Shown here piece after piece: positions 5,626-33,469 of a DNA stretch of 33,469 nucleotides (the first letter of the stretch is position 1; the number at the start of each line of letters is the position of its first letter). The translations under genes were made by a program, and so were the position numbers. This DNA comes from Desulfosporosinus sp. (lineage in GTDB: Bacteria > Campylobacterota > Campylobacteria > Campylobacterales > Arcobacteraceae). The notes under the pieces are model-generated. The model saw only the letters and a list, made by a program, of their open reading frames with translations. It ran no database searches and had not been told where the DNA came from. The stretch lies in assembly GCA_020719775.1 (NCBI GenBank), contig DYPS01000023.1, positions 1-33,469 of the forward strand, in the 5' to 3' direction.

Positions 5626-6163
5626 TTAGATCAAATATTAAACGATTTTATTTACTCCCTTTGAATTTAAGCAACAAAATAGAAGCTATTGTCATCTTAA
5701 AAAATATATTTCAAACTTCAGGAAAATAGTGATTTGCTTTGGCATTAGGAAAGAAGAAAATAAAACAGTTTTATTTTATTAGTATAAACAAATATAAGTT
5801 TAGGATTTTAAGTTATTCCGAATAACAGTTCGTTTGGAAGTAAGCTAGAAAATATATTCGAGCTATAGTCGAAATTTGATATATTTTTTAATAACTTTCA
5901 AATAATTCAAGTTATTTTCTAATCGAAAATGAATTCAGTAGAAAATTAATAGAATTTAAAAAATGATGTACATTTAAATTTACTAAAATCGGATTCAAAA
6001 CTGCAAAATAATTGATAATTAAGGTAAATCATAAGCTGTTATGGTGGTTGTAAAGTAAATTAATACTCTAAAGAGAAATTTTATTATTATTTTTCATTTT
6101 TTAACCTTTCTGAGCTCTAATTAATGTTTAGAAGTTGTAGTTATAATTCTTCTATTAAAAAGC
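5626..6163. promoter_or_regulatory. Divergent intergenic region, calpain-like / CDPK
   Basis: About 540 bases, the longest non-coding stretch on the chromosome, separate the minus-strand calpain-like gene from the plus-strand kinase gene. It is very AT-rich, has no long open frame in the TGA-only code, and presumably holds both promoters. I see no recognisable motif beyond short A and T runs. Confidence 0.55.
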
Positions 6164-7991
6164 ATGGGCAATACGCCGTGCGCGCTTCGTAATTCTGATA
6201 ATTCCAACTAAATCAATGAAATAAGGGATGTAACAGAAGACTGTTCATTTAAATCGCTTTAAAATTTATAAAATGATGAAGCACCTGTTTGGGCTCTGCG
6301 TAGTAAACTTAACGAAAGCTTTACTCACACTATTATCGCCAGTAAAAATATAATGAATTGCACATCCACCAATCAAACCTTGAGCAGTACACATCAAGAG
6401 TATGTTTCTCAGAGTACTGGTGGAAAGGAAAATTAAAATTTTAATCTAATTTCACCTCAAATGTCAGCTCAATTGGAGGAAATGCTTTTTATTCCTGTTT
6501 GTAGTTTTATCAAAAAAATGAAAGTTAAAAAACCATAATTCACTATGATTCAAATTGATCCCAAAAATTTTATTGTCATGAAGGAAAAGCCAATCAAGGA
6601 AGACTATGAAATCCAAAATTAAATAGGAAAAGGAGGATTTGGTAGCGTTTACAAGGCCAGGGAGAAAAATATTGGAGAAATGAGGGCAGTAAAAAAAATT
6701 AGTAAAAATTAAATGAATAACGAAGAAAAATTAAGTTTGATCAACTAATTCTAAATTTTACGGAGATTAGATCATCCAAATATAATCAAACTATATGATA
6801 TCTATGAGGATGATGAATTCTTATATGTTGTAACAGAGTTATGCGAAGGAGGAAATCTTCTTCAATTCACTAATAAAAATCCAATGACAGAAAGAATAAT
6901 CAGATAAATTATGACTCAAGTTTTGAGCGCTGTTAAGTATATGCACAGCTTTAATATTTTGCATAGAGATCTGAAATTATAAAACATAGTTGTTGTGAAA
7001 AAGACTCAATAGTTTAATAAATAAAAAATATAAATAAAATTGATTGACTTTGGAATTTCTGTTGATCTTAATAAAGACAAAATTGATCCTAATGATGATC
7101 TTCTCGGCACTCTCATTTATATGTCTCCTGAAGTGTTTGATGGAAACGTGGGATTAGCTTTGGACATGTGGAGTTGTGGTATTATCTTTTACATGATGAG
7201 TACTAAAAAAATGCCTTATACTTATAAATCAGAAGAATAGCTTGTGCATAAAATTACGAAAGCTGATATTATCCGTAAAAGTACATATGTTGACATTTAG
7301 ATCTTCAAAAAATATCGCTCTAGCTTAAGGTTTTTATAATGAGTTTTTTATAAAAAGATCCAAAAAGCAGAATAACTGCTGATAAATCTTTGAAAAATGT
7401 TTGGATTTGCAAGTAAAAGAGGGGTTCTAAAATGACTCAGTCAAAACGAGCGCAAGCTGTCAATGATTTGCTCAGTTACGATGTACATTTACCTCCATTC
7501 AGGCAAAAAATAATTTGGTTTCCATGATAGAAAGTTATCTTGTTTGCAAAAAAATCAATCAATCTGAAAGACAAAGATTAGCTCGTATTTTCCAGGAATT
7601 TGATTAGGACAAAAGTGGTATAATTTAAGTGCAGTAATTCAAAAAATTCTACGCTTAAAATTCAGATCATTACGATGTCAAAGAAGTTGAATAATTATTA
7701 AAAATCATAGACAAAAACAAATCAGGTAAGATAGACTTCAATGAGTTCATCAGTGCGATGTACTCACGCCGTAAGCTATTCCAGATTAAAGCTTTGGAGT
7801 AGGCATTTGATTTTTTCGACAAAGATAAATCAGGCTAGTTATCGAAAAATGAAGTTCGTATAATTTTATAGGGAATTCAAAACTAATAAATTGAATATCT
7901 GTTTAAGCAGTTAGATTCAAATAAGGATATGCGTATTTCGAAAAAGTAATTCATTACTTATTTGATTAATCATCAAGAAAATGTTCAGTGA
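6164..7991 (+). CDS. Calcium-dependent protein kinase (CDPK), four EF-hands
   Basis: The protein has 595 residues. It starts MGNTPC, a good N-myristoylation signal (Gly2) with a nearby palmitoylatable Cys, so it is probably membrane-anchored. After a ~150-residue Ser/Asn-rich extension comes the kinase domain: IGKGGFGSVYKARE (Gly loop), MRAVKKISK (ATP Lys), HRDLKLQN (catalytic loop), LIDFGISVDL (DFG) and LGTLIYMSPEV (SPE for APE). A junction helix leads to four EF-hands: DQDKSGIIQVQQ, DKNKSGKIDFNE, DKDKSGQLSKNE and DSNKDMRISKKQ. The first and last end in Gln and may bind Ca2+ more weakly. Two 20-nt introns (7281-7300, 7483-7502) restore the frame precisely where the kinase consensus demands. 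CDPKs phosphorylate targets in response to calcium. Confidence 0.93.
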
Positions 7992-18119: not shown

Positions 18120-19014
18120 TCAAACAATATAAAAGAAGTTTGTAACTGAATTATATCTGACATTTTCGATAAGACTTTCCAAATCGTCTTTGAATCTCTC
18201 TTTGAATAGAGTTCTTGGAATCTTAACCTACACTTATTCTGCTTAATTTTATTTATCACTGAGGCATTTTAATTCTAATAATAATGAAGTAGAGCCTCTT
18301 GATATTTTCAGTAGAACTTCAGTAGTATCAATAGTGATTTGTTTTGGCCTTGAAAAGTAGCTGAATAGTTTCTAATTATTTTTGTACTTTTAATTCTACA
18401 TCTAAATAACTCGCGATTAGTTGGCAAGAGTGTGCATCTTTACTGGACTATCATTATTTTTTAGCTTTTCATCAATAATAATTTTGCGTCTTGAGAGATA
18501 CTTAAGTTCGTTATTATGCAAATCAAACTATTTTATGATATATTTGTACTTTTATGATAGTTTTGTTGGGTTTTAAGTTTTTATACCCAAACTTAGAGAT
18601 AGTATTAATGTATTTTTCAGTAGTGCTTCGCTGGTTAAGTATTCGTTCTGTATCGTACATCGGTTTGGTATGTTTTAAACGCAGATACAGTCCTTAATTC
18701 TAGCATTTAATTTTATGCTCTTAGTAATATCGTCTACGATTGCTTTTGGGAAGTGAATTATTTTGACTGCACATAGACATATCTTGACGATTTTGAACGC
18801 GATCTGTCAGTTTTTTAAGAAGAGCTTTGTTTTAAAGCTCAATTTATAAACTGTGGATGTAATTGCTTTTTTTAGATGAAGGACCTCGAGATAGATTTGA
18901 ACGGGTATTGAGAGTTGGCTTGATATGAATTAGACGATCTTCATGCTTGAGCCAGTTCTTTTTTATTTCATGAAAGGCAACGAGCCGACTTCCAGAGTTG
19001 ATTTATCGATTCAT
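18120..19014 (-). CDS. Probable CFAP97/hemingway-like ciliary protein
   Basis: The protein has 290 residues, starting MNRQINSGSRLVAFHEIKKN. It has two related helical segments, YIHSLQIELQNKALLKKLTD and YYQEHKIKCQNQGLYLRLKH. Both follow a pattern of aromatic, basic, ENQ-like, then Leu-Arg/Lys residues, as in CFAP97/hemingway-domain proteins that associate with axonemes. A basic stretch NLKPNKTII leads into a 22-nt intron (18528-18549), after which the frame continues KFDLHNNELKYLSRRKIIID. The C-terminal 100 residues (FSYFSRPKQITIDTTEVLLK, then LLLELKCLSD) look globular and are not part of that family. The family assignment is tentative; the gene model is firmer. Confidence 0.6.
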
Positions 19015-19190
19015 CGAAAAATAAAATAGAATTCGAAGGTATTCCTCATTTTACTGTAAATAACATAATGAAGAAAATTAAGTAGAAAAATATTTAAATA
19101 ACAACTTCTACCAATTAAGATGTTTATATTTATTTTTCATTGCTGAATTCGGTTTAATATCAGATGTTTTAATTCGTAAGAGATAAATAA

Positions 19191-21143
19191 TCATTTTGGT
19201 TTGCATTCAATGAGTTATACTTTTCCTTCAACTTAAAATTCCTTAAAATTATTTTTACTGATGATATGAACGCATTCTGTGATGGCTGTTTCTTTTTAAA
19301 AGTTTTTATATTGAATGGGCTCCATAGTTTGAAGCATTTACATGGTTACTTCTTTTTTCAGAATGGCTATGACTGTCTTTTTCAAATTAAGATTACTTAA
19401 ATTGATAAAAATAAATGGATCTCTTTTATTGTTACATTAAAAAAGAACTTAGAAAAATTATTTACGAATAGGGTTAATATCACGAGTGACATTAGCTGAA
19501 AAGATACAAGGAACTTTGGATTGTAATGACAAAGCTTCTTTTTTGAATTGTTCGAAATCTTTGAAGCCTATTCGAGTTGTAATAACTCCATTTATTGCAT
19601 AATAAATGCAAAAATCAGGTTTAGTTGTTGGCAAAAATTTAGTATGAGTTTTATAAGGAAAAATATGAGCAGGCCGAATACAATCTCCTCCTGAAATCGT
19701 GATTGCATTAGGGGCTTCTTCTGCAATATTTGGAATATTTCTATTTAAAAATTTAGTAATAACATATTTAATCTTTTCTTTAGGGAGGAAACTTTAATTA
19801 AAGGGCATTTATTTAATTCTCTTTTTTAATTCTTCAGCACATTGTCCAAGTTGTTTTTTTATAGTTTGACGAACTCTATCAATAATACTTTAGTGAAAAG
19901 TGCACATAACTCCATCATAACTATTATAATTTTTAAGCACTAAAACTATAGGAAATGGAGATTGAATGTTGATCAAATATTTAAGATATTCAGGCATGAT
20001 TGCATTTGAATTTTATCCGCTAATGATAAGTCCCATTGGCGTTCGAATATTGTTTTTAAAATCTCTGATTTATTTATCAAACTTATCATCTCCTTTATAA
20101 ATTTATGCAATTGAGAACTTCATTAAGGTGCAGGCATACAATTTTTGTATTTTTTTGCCTTCAGGTTTATTAACTCCAAACAAATAGACAAACTCTCCTT
20201 CTTCTTCTCTAATAAATTTGAATATGTCATCATTGAACACTATTTAACTGTTTAATTTGTCTTTATTATCCGAACAAAATCTTATGATGTTATCGATGAT
20301 GTTTTCATATTGACTATGTTATGAAAACTTCTAGGACAAATCCTATTGCTGAAATTACTATGGTTATTGAGAGTTTATATTTATTAACTATTCACTCTTT
20401 TTGCTGAAATCTAATTGCATTGGCTGTCCGACTTATAAGTCCATCATATTTAGCATAGAATTTGCATTGAAGCTGTTGCTTTTAATGTTGGGATTTGAAC
20501 TATTTTAATTTATGCTACTTATGTTTCCTAGACTTTAAAGACTATTTAATTCAACAAAACTTTCACTCTTTACTTCAACTATTTTTTTAATTTAACTTGG
20601 AGTATTTGTTGCTATAACTGGCTCCTCAACGATAATCTACTTGGGCTGTATGATAGCAAAGGTTGGTGATAAATTTTGTGCAGAAGTATTATGATAGGGT
20701 GTGGAAACCGAAAGAGGTGGTGGTGGATATTGATTATTATTAAAAGAAGAGGTTGATTATGGCTTTTGTTTTTACACAATAACACTTTTTGGAGGAGATG
20801 GATATGTTATATTTTGATTCATTTTTTGTATATTTTATCCACTTACATTTTTTGTTTGTGGGACTTATATAACTGATTTGGCAGGTTTAGTGTTATAGAC
20901 TTGAACTGGTTTTGGCTATTCGAATGTTGCTTATATTTTTTTCATAACTGTGTCTTGGATGCGGCCAAATTGAGAAAAACTTTTCAATGTCGTGATAATT
21001 TTATCTATTTTTTCTTTAACTTTGGTAGTTAGATTGTTTGATAATTTTTAATTCTTTTTGGCAATCCGAAACATTCTCAAGAGTTAATTTATTTTGGCAA
21101 GTTCATTGATGAATTAAGCTGGGACGTCGCTGCTATCCTGCAT
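19191..21143 (-). CDS. Unrecognised 650-aa protein with Q/N/P-rich middle
   Basis: A single exon of 651 codons has TGA only at its end. Residues 1-75 are helical (MQDSSDVPAQFINELAKINQ). Residues ~76-285 are low-complexity, rich in Gln, Asn, Ser and Pro (NQYPPPPLSVSTPYHNTS). Residues ~290-650 look like one or two folded alpha/beta domains: FVYLFGVNKPEGKKIQKLYA, TPMGLIISGQNSN, PFPIVLVLKNYNSYDGVMCT, ITISGGDCIRPAHIFPYKTH, FCIYYAINGVITTRIGF, PCIFSANVTRDINPIRK and DPFIFINLSNLNLKKTVIAI. I find no known catalytic motif. The TPMGLIISG part faintly recalls MPN-type folds, but I cannot support that. The long open frame makes the gene certain even though the family is unknown. Confidence 0.8.
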
Positions 21144-21243: not shown

Positions 21244-24200
21244 TCATGACTTAATCAAATTGATCTTTTCGCTTTTCAGTATTTCTTAAATTTTTTCGCG
21301 CATTCTATCATATTCCTTTACAATCTCATTTTTTTAATTATCACTAGCTTTGTTTAAGGCTCGTGACTTAGAACGGGAAATCAATTCTAAAAGCTATAAT
21401 AAGGATGTTGCTGTTTTTGCCATCATTTAATCTTTAATCTTAAATGTTGAAATATTTAAAATTTATTTAGTTTTTTTATCCAACTCTGCAGCATAAGATT
21501 GAAATTTATTCATATCTTATTAAATTTTACTAGCCTGTTTTCTGGAAGGAAGTGAAGCTGCTTTTTATTTTTCCCAAGCCTATAAGCAATTTCTCAGCTC
21601 ACCATTCAAAGAAATTATTCTATTCTGAGAATTCATAAGCTACATTTATTGATGCTCAATCATTTCATCTTTTTGTTATAATAATTATTCGAGCTCTTCT
21701 CTCTCATGTTCAAAATATTCAATTTATGATTTTAACTATGTTCGCTAGCTCTATCTTTCTTATTCGAATTATTTTAATTTTTTTTATAGTTGTTTGCATT
21801 TTTATTTGAAAGAAATTATTTATTTTTGACTTTCATCCCAGTTTTTATTCTTAAAATTTTGATAAAATTCTTATTTTTCTTTCAGTTGATCCTGAAGCAA
21901 AGATAGCTTATTCTTGGCCTCTGCTTATTTAGTGTTTGAGCGTTGCACTTATTTTTTTGTTTCTGTTAAACTTTCCTTTAATTCATTAATTGTTCCATGC
22001 AATCCAACTTTTTAATTTTTTAATTATTCCTATCTTTTTTCTGTATCATAATTTTTATGGATTAATTTTTATATTTTTTCCTTTAAACTTAATATTTAGG
22101 CTTATAATTATTATATTTTAATTTTTTTCGACTCAAGTTACTCTTCAAATGTATTTTTTTAATTGTAATGCTATGATTTTTATTTCTAAACACCCATAAT
22201 TTGTCTGTTTAGTTATTCGATTTTATTATTGAGCTTATTTATTTGATTTCTTCTTTCTTAATTTTATTTCCGCAAATCAGAATTGATTGTTTCTTGCTAC
22301 TTTTGTCTCTCTTCTAATTGTTTAATTAAAAATTATTTAATTTCCATTTTTCCGGTTGTTTCAGTGAGTTGATCAAAGTATTTATTAGATTTTTTGATTT
22401 AATTATTCAAATTTTCTTCCAATTGAACTATCTTATTCTTTTGCTCTTCATTGCTCATTGTTGATGTTTTTTTAATGCTTTATAATTTATTCTATAAATT
22501 TTATTTGGCAATAAGTAAATCTGACAGTTCGTTATGAGCTTCATTTAACTTAGCTTCGATTTCCTTCTTCAGTTATTTTTCTCCTTTTATTTATATTTTC
22601 ATGTTTTATATGCTATGTTCCAATTAATTGATTTGTTTCTGACTTTCAATGTTGTTTTGTTATATTTGACTTTTTTATTCGCTTAATTTGATAAATTTGT
22701 CTTTAAAAATTTATAGCTACCCTTCTAATTTTCCTTTGTCTTCAGATAGACTACTATTTTTGGCTTTTAAATTACCAATTAATTTTTACTTTTATGCCAA
22801 AGATTTTTAGCTTTGCTGATAATCTTTTGTTAACTTTGTAACTTTTTCTCTTTATTGTTAGATTTAATTATTTAATTACAATTTTAATTTATGAACAGTT
22901 GTCTCATCTTCTGATTTTTTATTTATTTATCTGGATCTAATTTCAAGTATTTTTTCTTCTAATTTTTTAATATCTAAAAGAGATTGTTAAAATTTGATTG
23001 TAACTTATTATTTTTACAACTTTTACTATTAAAAGAGCTCGTTTAATAGTTTTAACTTATTCTATAATTTTTACTTTTAACTTTTTTAACTTTAAAGCTC
23101 ATTTCTTGCTTACTATAGTTAATTTTTTAAGTTTTAATTGTTTAAATTCAATTTTTGTTCTAACTCCATTAGCTTCTGACTATTTTGCTTAATTATTTTT
23201 TCAAGTTATTCACTTTTAAGTTGTAAATTTTTACTTTTATTTTAAACTTCTTTTTCCAAATAGTTAATTTCTACTTCCTGTTCTGCTATAGTATTTTTAA
23301 AATTATTGATATATTTATTTCTTAATCCCAAAGCTTCCAATTGAGTTCTCGCTAGGTTAATTTCAGGTACAGCTATTACTTCGTCACTACTTGAAGTTTC
23401 GCTATCTTTTGAAATAAAAATGAGAAGTTGCTGCATAGCTTTTTTAAATGTCTCCAACTGAGAAGATAAATTTTTATTTTGCTTTTATAATTCTTCAACT
23501 CTACATTTGAGATCACTTGTCAATTTAATATGTCCTTTTTAATCTTAACTAAATTTGCCTAAACTTTCTTCCAGTTGTTTTTTCAAACTATCATTTTATT
23601 TTTTCAAATCCTTGTTTTTCTACTCTTCTTCTTTTAATACTTTTTAATTCTCATCTAAAGTGATCGTTAACAATTTTGATTAACGAGTTAGCTGTCCTAA
23701 TTAATCATCAATTTTTTCATAATCTTTTTGAAGTTCTTCAAGACTATTTTTTTTATTTTATAGATTGTTTTTAAGATCGTCGATAATGATTTAATAGTTT
23801 ACGATTAAATCTTTATTGTCCTCAATTGTAACTTTTAGTTTAGAAGATGATAGGAAATACTCTTGTTCTAACTCATTAATTTTCTTTTTATAGGTAAAAA
23901 TAAGTTTTTATTTTTATTTCAATATATCCAAATTATCTCTCTCTCTTCTTTTTAAGTCTTCCATTTATTTTTTTAAGCCTTATATTTCGCAAGTTGATTA
24001 ATGAACACTTATTTCGAGTTGTTCAATAGTCTTTTGCAATTTTAATGAGGCTTATTGCTGTTTAATTATTTCTTCACCTCTTTATTTTAATTTTTTTTAA
24101 CTTTAATTATGACTCTCTCGTTCCTTTTCAAGTGCCCATTTTAAATCTTATAAATCTGATTAAATGTAATCTTTTGATTGAAATAATGAATTAACTTTGC

Positions 24201-25972
24201 TGAGCAAAGCTGTTTCTTTTTATGCAAACTAGGCTTATTATTGTTATGATTTTGTTTTGAGATCATTCAACCTTTAGTTCAAAAATGTATTTTTCGAGGA
24301 TAGGTTGTTATTTTAGCTTTGAAGCCTTGAAATGTCTTTCTAAAATGCAGTATTGGCTTTTTAAAAATCTGAGCATTTTGTTGATAATCTTTTTTTTTCT
24401 TTGGTAATTTATTAATAGCTGATTTCCATTACTTTATGACTATCTTTCAGCTCTTGATACTATAAAGTCATTTTGCTAAATTTGTCTTTTAATTTTTGGT
24501 ACTCTTGACTGCTCTAATTGATTTTTTTCTTCAACAAATTCTTTTAGATTTAAATGTTTTTAAGTTCTTCTAAATCTTTTTCCAATTATTTTTTCAGTCC
24601 CACTTATTTTTAAAGCTGCACTTTTTGAGTTTCAAAATTATGATGACAAATATCAAGTTCACTTTCCATTTAGTTTATTTTGATGCTTATATTTTTTTAT
24701 GAAATTATTAATGAGGTAGTTTTAGTAACCAATTACTCGTTTTATTCTCTTAATTTTGATATTTATTTTTATAGCTTTTCCCATTGTTATTTCCATTTTG
24801 ATTTTTATTATAGATATCCTTTTTATTTCTGTTTGCCTGTATTTTGATTTGCTTTTTCCATTAGCTCCATTTTTTAAAGTAATAAATTGTATTCGTGAAC
24901 TGATTTACTGTGGTCGATTTATAACTGCTGCATTTTTTAAATTAGTCTTTTCTCTCGATCTACAAAACTTTGTTCTTTGCTCTCCATTTTTCTTTCGAGG
25001 ACTGCATATTTCATATTAAGTGTTTCATACGTTTAGCTCATTCTTTTAATTTATATTACATTAGCTTTCATTTTTTTTTCATTTTCGTTATTTATTTTTT
25101 ATAGTTCTATTTGCTTGTTTTATAACTCCATAGATTTAATTCTTCTTTTTTATAGATTTTATTTCAATTACTTGTTTGCAGACTGTAATTATTTTTATTT
25201 ACGCTATGAAATTTTCCATTTTTATTTTATTTTTTACAATTACGTTTCAATCTCTTATTTATCCCTCTTTAATATATTCATCTTTCTTTCATTGTTTTAT
25301 TACAAATCTTTTAGTCGTATATCGATGCCTGGTATCACATTTTTTACTTTTGATGAAGCCAATCCTTTGATTTTTGAATCGTTCGATGATGATTTACTCG
25401 AAAATCTATTCATCTTTGGTGATTATTCTTCTTTTGTTTTCAGAAGCATTGGAGGAACCCTTAAGCCATTTGAAGGTTTTTCTGTTGATTTCATATTTCT
25501 AAGGGTAATAGGAATTGATTTTTTTGCTTATTCTTCAATATCTTTAATTTTTTTAATTTTTGCAAATCCTACATTGATTGTGGCAGATGCTGTTTTATCA
25601 GAGCATCTTTTCAATGGTAAAGTTTCAATTTTATTTTGTGCAGCATTGAAAGTGACAACGCCTGCAACTATTTTGCCGCTGGCAGTATTGATTGAGATGA
25701 TGAGATCGACCTAATTTAAATTGGATTTACCATGACTTCTGAGTAGCTATCGATATTGTTAGTGTAAGTAGATTAGATTTGAAAGGTAACGCTGTCTCCC
25801 ACTTCACATTCGTTATTGCTGAGGGGATATAATTTTGGTAAATCTTAGTAAAGATGAGCTGAATGAAGAAAGGGTTACTGTTCTTGAACTGAAAGGAGAG
25901 TTGACCTGGGAAGCGAATGGCCAGTTTAACTTTTTCGATCTAGACAACAACTTTTATCAAATGCAACTACAT
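21244..25972 (-). CDS. Giant coiled-coil protein with N-terminal C2-like domain (1562 aa)
   Basis: The protein starts MQLHLIKVVVQIEKVKLAIR. Residues 1-130 form a beta-rich C2-like domain of the EEIG1/EHBP1 N-terminal type: RFPGQLSFQFKN, ECEVGDSVTFQIQSTYTNN, EVMVDLIISINTASGKIVAG and VTFNAAQNKIETLPLKRCSD. Two 20-nt introns (25859-25878 GTAACCCTTTCTTCATTCAG; 25711-25730 GTAAATCCAATTTAAATTAG) join three frames into this domain. A Ser/Lys-rich linker follows. From ~residue 220 to the end nearly everything is coiled coil in one unbroken frame of ~4 kb, very rich in TAA-encoded Gln. The family's C2 domains bind membranes, and such proteins tether organelles or vesicles. No motor domain is present. 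The exact family is unresolved. Confidence 0.85.
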
Positions 25973-33392: not shown

Positions 33393-33445
33393 TTGCTTCT
33401 TAATAATTTTCAAAATAGTCAACACCATTAAATTAAAATTAATTA

Positions 33446-33469
33446 GGGGTTGGGGTTGGGGTTGGGGTT
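33446..33469. repeat. Right telomere, G4T2 repeats
   Basis: Four GGGGTT units end the sequence, the mirror of the C4A2 units at the left end. Only 53 bases separate them from the stop codon of the last gene, so the 3' UTR and polyadenylation signal of that gene must be extremely short. Confidence 0.97.

Follow-up and report, generated by a model that had tools for sequence, protein, structure and literature searches.

The open reading frame at 19191-21143 raises the question of what its 650-amino-acid product is and from which kind of organism it comes. We analyzed it within a window of 33,469 nucleotides, the whole stretch of DNA under study, which corresponds to contig C76 in a 2.85-Mb assembly made up of 228 contigs.

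Origin of the DNA and its genetic code

Telomeric repeats are found at both ends of the window:

1-38, no strand: telomeric repeats CCCCAA, left end; many contigs of the assembly end in these repeats as well
33444-33469, no strand: telomeric repeats GGGGTT, right end

Because it starts with CCCCAA and ends with GGGGTT repeats, the 33.5-kb stretch represents one small ciliate macronuclear chromosome in full. Other contigs carry Campylobacterota-like bacterial genes (a placement that is our own reading of the gene products), and many further contigs end in the same telomeric repeat as the window. The presence of both bacterial-type and telomere-capped contigs means that the assembly is a mixture of a bacterial genome and ciliate chromosomes; among those contributing to this mix are C6, C8, C29, C31, C48, C49, C59, C76 and C78, along with others. 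The assembly is nevertheless filed as a prokaryote, with 100% completeness and 0.32% contamination. Its ciliate chromosomes are about 6-40 kb long, several having CCCCAA telomeres at both ends. Two small chromosomes capped by telomeres, C8 (10.2 kb) and C6 (10.4 kb), contain very long open frames of about 1,100-1,660 codons. The products of those on C8 are rich in cysteine, have the look of secreted or surface proteins and are similar to that of a frame on C29 (7727-10828 of locus L042).

The initial annotation and our early analyses translated TAA and TAG as glutamine. Substituting glutamate raised the Pfam bit scores for PRP1_N (131.5 versus 125.1), TPR_14 (135.3 versus 130.5), Pkinase (207.9 versus 203.2), ParA/NUBPL (262.1 versus 260.5), BBS2_hp (74.4 versus 69.8), BBS2_pf (35.4 versus 30.8) and CFAP97 (29.3 versus 24.6), whereas slight decreases were seen for Calpain (85.8 versus 86.5), BBS2_Mid (47.1 versus 48.2) and certain overlapping models of the repeat or P-loop kind. 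Lysine and aspartate scored below glutamate for PRP1_N, TPR_14, Pkinase and BBS2_hp, as did tyrosine and serine, tried on Prp6 only (PRP1_N and TPR_14). Glutamate was also favored when TAG was considered alone, but more weakly, and C29, another ciliate chromosome of the assembly, agreed by Pfam bits in nearly all families. The protein kinase encoded at 5963-7342 has TAA at the invariant helix-C glutamate position and at the E of DLKPEN, and human PRPF6 has glutamate opposite 20 of the 62 TAA/TAG codons and glutamine opposite 4.

Judged from these comparisons, TAA and TAG encode glutamate (NCBI table 30, the peritrich nuclear code), not glutamine. In Peritrichia, UAR codons have been reassigned to glutamate in a single evolutionary event (PMC10553269), so the source organism is most likely a peritrich ciliate. 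The change alters every protein that was initially described from the chromosome, which needs to be translated with TAA/TAG as glutamate; in the 650-amino-acid protein, 35 residues switch to glutamate under table 30. All glutamine-based translations from the window carry wrong residues, and the same code is found on C29.

The gene and the layout of its product

The frame contains 651 codons on the minus strand, with an ATG at 21143 followed, after 650 codons in all, by a TGA stop at 19191-19193. TGA is the sole stop codon in use, and at its local frequency of 2.1% the probability that a frame stays open over 651 codons by chance is ~1e-6. A codon-usage model trained on four neighboring genes gave positive scores for the gene's frame in nearly all intervals (1 of 21 was slightly below zero), with mostly negative scores in the other five frames and a fall upstream of the ATG. 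As codon usage revealed no frame change within 19191-21143, a frame-shifting intron is not needed. The locus is a genuine single-exon gene, and the 650-residue protein first annotated there is confirmed, running from ATG to TGA and coding in its own frame only.

Those neighbors that have recognized domains are ordinary conserved eukaryotic genes, encoding Prp6, BBS2, a NUBPL-type P-loop NTPase, a protein kinase and CFAP97. The last of these, a CFAP97/Hemingway-family protein at 18523-19206 (minus strand), lies above the Pfam cutoff only with TAA/TAG as glutamate. The adjoining gene at 21244-25614 (minus strand) encodes a large coiled-coil protein of 1456 amino acids, about 20% glutamate under the correct code, with a weak TPR/MLP1-type match (23.0 bits, below the cutoff).

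The gene and the parts of its product are as follows:

19191-21143, minus strand: whole coding sequence, 650 amino acids, single exon, ATG to TGA, NCBI table 30 (TAA/TAG = Glu)
20913-21143, minus strand: N-terminal helical part, residues 1-77, with predicted helices at 6-30, 36-54 and 57-73 (AF2 single-sequence, block pLDDT about 52-77, Gln reading)
20277-20912, minus strand: predicted disordered linker, residues 78-289, mildly acidic and Ser/Asn/Pro-rich (pLDDT about 25-40; composition from table 30)
19194-20276, minus strand: C-terminal part, residues 290-650, predicted mixed alpha/beta, no recognized family
20004-20033, minus strand: motif GLIISGENSN, residues 371-380
19659-19697, minus strand: motif ISGGDCIRPAHIF, residues 483-495
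19470-19505, minus strand: motif IFSANVTRDINP, residues 547-558

The protein would thus consist of three parts, a layout that we infer from structure prediction. The AF2 model of the whole protein had a pLDDT of 37, with moderate confidence for the N-terminal helices, residues 78 to ~280 unstructured and very low confidence for the C-terminal alpha/beta part; residues 298-450 modeled alone (pLDDT 49) gave four beta strands followed by an alternation of strands with helices. Both models were made without relatives and with glutamine at positions that should be glutamate (35 in the whole protein), and they are too weak for assigning a fold. The alternation of strands and helices initially claimed for the C-terminal part is therefore predicted, though at the very low confidence of these Gln-reading models. 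The three motifs quoted with it are all present, but one of them, given as GLIISGQNSN, should read GLIISGENSN. No internal repeat emerged when the C-terminal part was tested for one (p about 0.1-0.6), and residues 1-77 matched no family in profile searches, Pfam included.

The N-terminal half had also been described as a prion-like stretch rich in glutamine, asparagine and proline, of the kind associated with RNA granules or condensates. On switching from the glutamine to the glutamate code, residues 80-285 go from 30 to 14 glutamines and from 27% to 19% Gln+Asn, and the highest Q/N count in any 80 consecutive residues falls from 28 to 19. The customary threshold for Q/N-rich prion-like sequences is at least about 30 Q/N in 80 residues; the maximum of 19 lies below it, and even the 28 of the glutamine reading is unexceptional among the neighboring genes (17-32). 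The apparent glutamine richness was partly an artifact of the wrong code, and because the linker is not Gln-rich with TAA/TAG as glutamate, the prion-like argument falls, together with the granule or condensate assignment, which rested on the glutamine reading. A long linker with much Ser, Asn and Pro, modeled at low confidence, would be in keeping with such a protein, which we consider very improbable.

Searches for relatives and candidate folds

No credible match to the protein, its C-terminal part included, was obtained in Pfam, nor in NCBIfam, PHROGs or PADLOC with Gln-reading queries, nor among PDB sequences for the C-terminal part. GTDB genomes and IMG/VR contigs yielded no relatives, and no second copy of the gene was found in the same assembly; the collections searched contain neither ciliate nor other protist proteomes. 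Weak Campylobacterota matches to residues 509-604, one to a ParA-type ATPase and one to a protein with no relation to it, were at chance level over 397 genomes and were discarded. Foldseek matches of both AF2 models (Gln reading) were at noise level, with Mre11/SbcD phosphoesterases repeatedly among the leading PDB entries, mostly at rmsd >12 Å. The initial annotation had recognized no family and had named a confident match to a known domain as the finding that would overturn it. The libraries searched gave no match of that kind, and within them its statement is borne out. With the tools used, the protein matches no known family and, pending the discovery of relatives, counts as an ordinary unplaced protein.

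Three leads to known folds, suggested by eye or by a top match, were tested, and none held up against profile or shuffle controls. The best PDB sequence match was the NYN ribonuclease domain of MARF1 (5yaa, 6fdl), an isolated segment at E 0.024, which might indicate an NYN/PIN-type RNase domain, possibly inactive, at residues about 309-408. About 100 residues are colinear with MARF1, and the score exceeds all shuffles. With the correct residues, however, the match drops to E 0.11, and unrelated T-cell-receptor chains reach E 0.12. A bacterial NYN profile places MARF1 correctly, whereas the query is aligned to it in a shifted register only, and Pfam gave no match to NYN (PF01936). As for the conserved acidic positions of NYN, of which the first lies in a central strand and is followed by (A)DD and then S(G)D, DDK is present, the central first strand is not evident and the third position reads SGEN under the glutamate code. 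In view of the profile control and the equally good spurious matches under the correct code we rejected a MARF1/NYN identity, and we hold an NYN-type domain to be highly unlikely. The reading as a degenerate replicative DNA polymerase B-subunit (like POLE2, POLA2 or POLD2), a non-catalytic polymerase scaffold composed of a helical N-terminus, a linker, OB strands and an inactivated phosphoesterase, is persuasive by eye, since the order of elements fits (for example, GEFVYLFGVN against GQVVIMEGIN and GLIISGENSN against CILFGPFLD). Several Mre11/SbcD phosphoesterases stand near the top of the weak Foldseek lists for both models (E 0.04-0.2), and some phosphoesterases are among the matches in a viral structure library. 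Against this, profile, local, global and HMM-HMM scores to human and yeast B-subunits (chains checked against PDB records) equal the shuffled mean, PF04042 gives no match at E<=10, and Tetrahymena POLA2 is present in the PDB (7uy8), yet was not matched. A check of the OB-then-phosphoesterase fold had before it a low-confidence model and weak Mre11 matches amid noise. The likeness of the N-terminus to POLE2 is no better than p about 0.09, and none of POLE2, POLA2, KIX or LW domain, each tried for this region, does better than p about 0.08. Shuffles, profiles and PF04042 thus decide against a polymerase B-subunit, which we regard as decidedly unlikely.

A degenerate MPN/JAB-fold scaffold of the eIF3f/Rpn8 kind, to which EFVYLFG and GLIISGENSN...PFPIVLVL can be fitted as MPN strands by eye with no tool result behind it, appears extremely improbable: profile and pairwise scores to human and yeast chains are near shuffled values, which speaks against the domain, and Pfam JAB gave no match. 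Since three different folds could all be matched by eye, such matching carries no weight for this protein.

A tentative reading and comparison with known systems

The reading that we prefer, tentatively, is a fast-diverged, non-catalytic adaptor subunit, with both the adaptor role and the hidden orthology put forward conjecturally, whereas the gene, its code and the failure to detect relatives are established. The protein would belong to a conserved eukaryotic complex, as a subunit that has diverged in sequence beyond recognition; its N-terminal helical module would dock on one partner, the flexible linker would supply reach, and the C-terminal alpha/beta module, which has no recognizable active-site signature, would bind another partner. 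In favor of this are the real coding frame with the glutamate code confirmed, the helical N-terminus, disordered middle and alpha/beta C-terminus of the low-confidence models, and the lack of matches to catalytic families in Pfam, NCBIfam, PHROGs and PADLOC. Since the neighbors with recognized domains are all conserved eukaryotic genes of an ordinary kind, it is plausible to assume by default that this gene, too, is conserved but diverged. Weighing against it, no homolog was found, and both AF2 models are poor and Gln-based. Alternatively, the protein could have no ortholog among known eukaryotic proteins and represent a family restricted to peritrichs or to ciliates, its fold being new or unrecognizable. 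We deem this somewhat unlikely: it agrees with the failure to detect a relative in any collection searched, but those collections contain no ciliate or other protist proteomes, and single-sequence searches can be expected to fail for any ciliate protein that evolves fast. That the C-terminal 360 residues form a conserved, undescribed ciliate family with a fold outside the known superfamilies is improbable.

Unplaced proteins are common in ciliates, so the gene alone matters little. Two outcomes are useful: the need to translate the chromosome with TAA/TAG as glutamate, and the finding that a supposedly prokaryotic genome entry includes a number of small macronuclear chromosomes of a peritrich, several of them with telomeres at both ends.

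Compared with known systems, the protein is similar by eye to POLE2/POLA2/POLD2 (PF04042) in the order of its parts, with a helical N-terminus, a linker, a beta-rich segment and an alpha/beta part devoid of catalytic residues, a likeness that is statistically unsupported in every test. The MPN/JAB scaffolds eIF3f and Rpn8 are alike by eye in strand pattern, likewise with no statistical support. The MARF1 NYN domain has ~100 residues colinear with the query and the DDK motif in common with it, but differs in possessing a first strand and a third acidic position that are not seen in the query.
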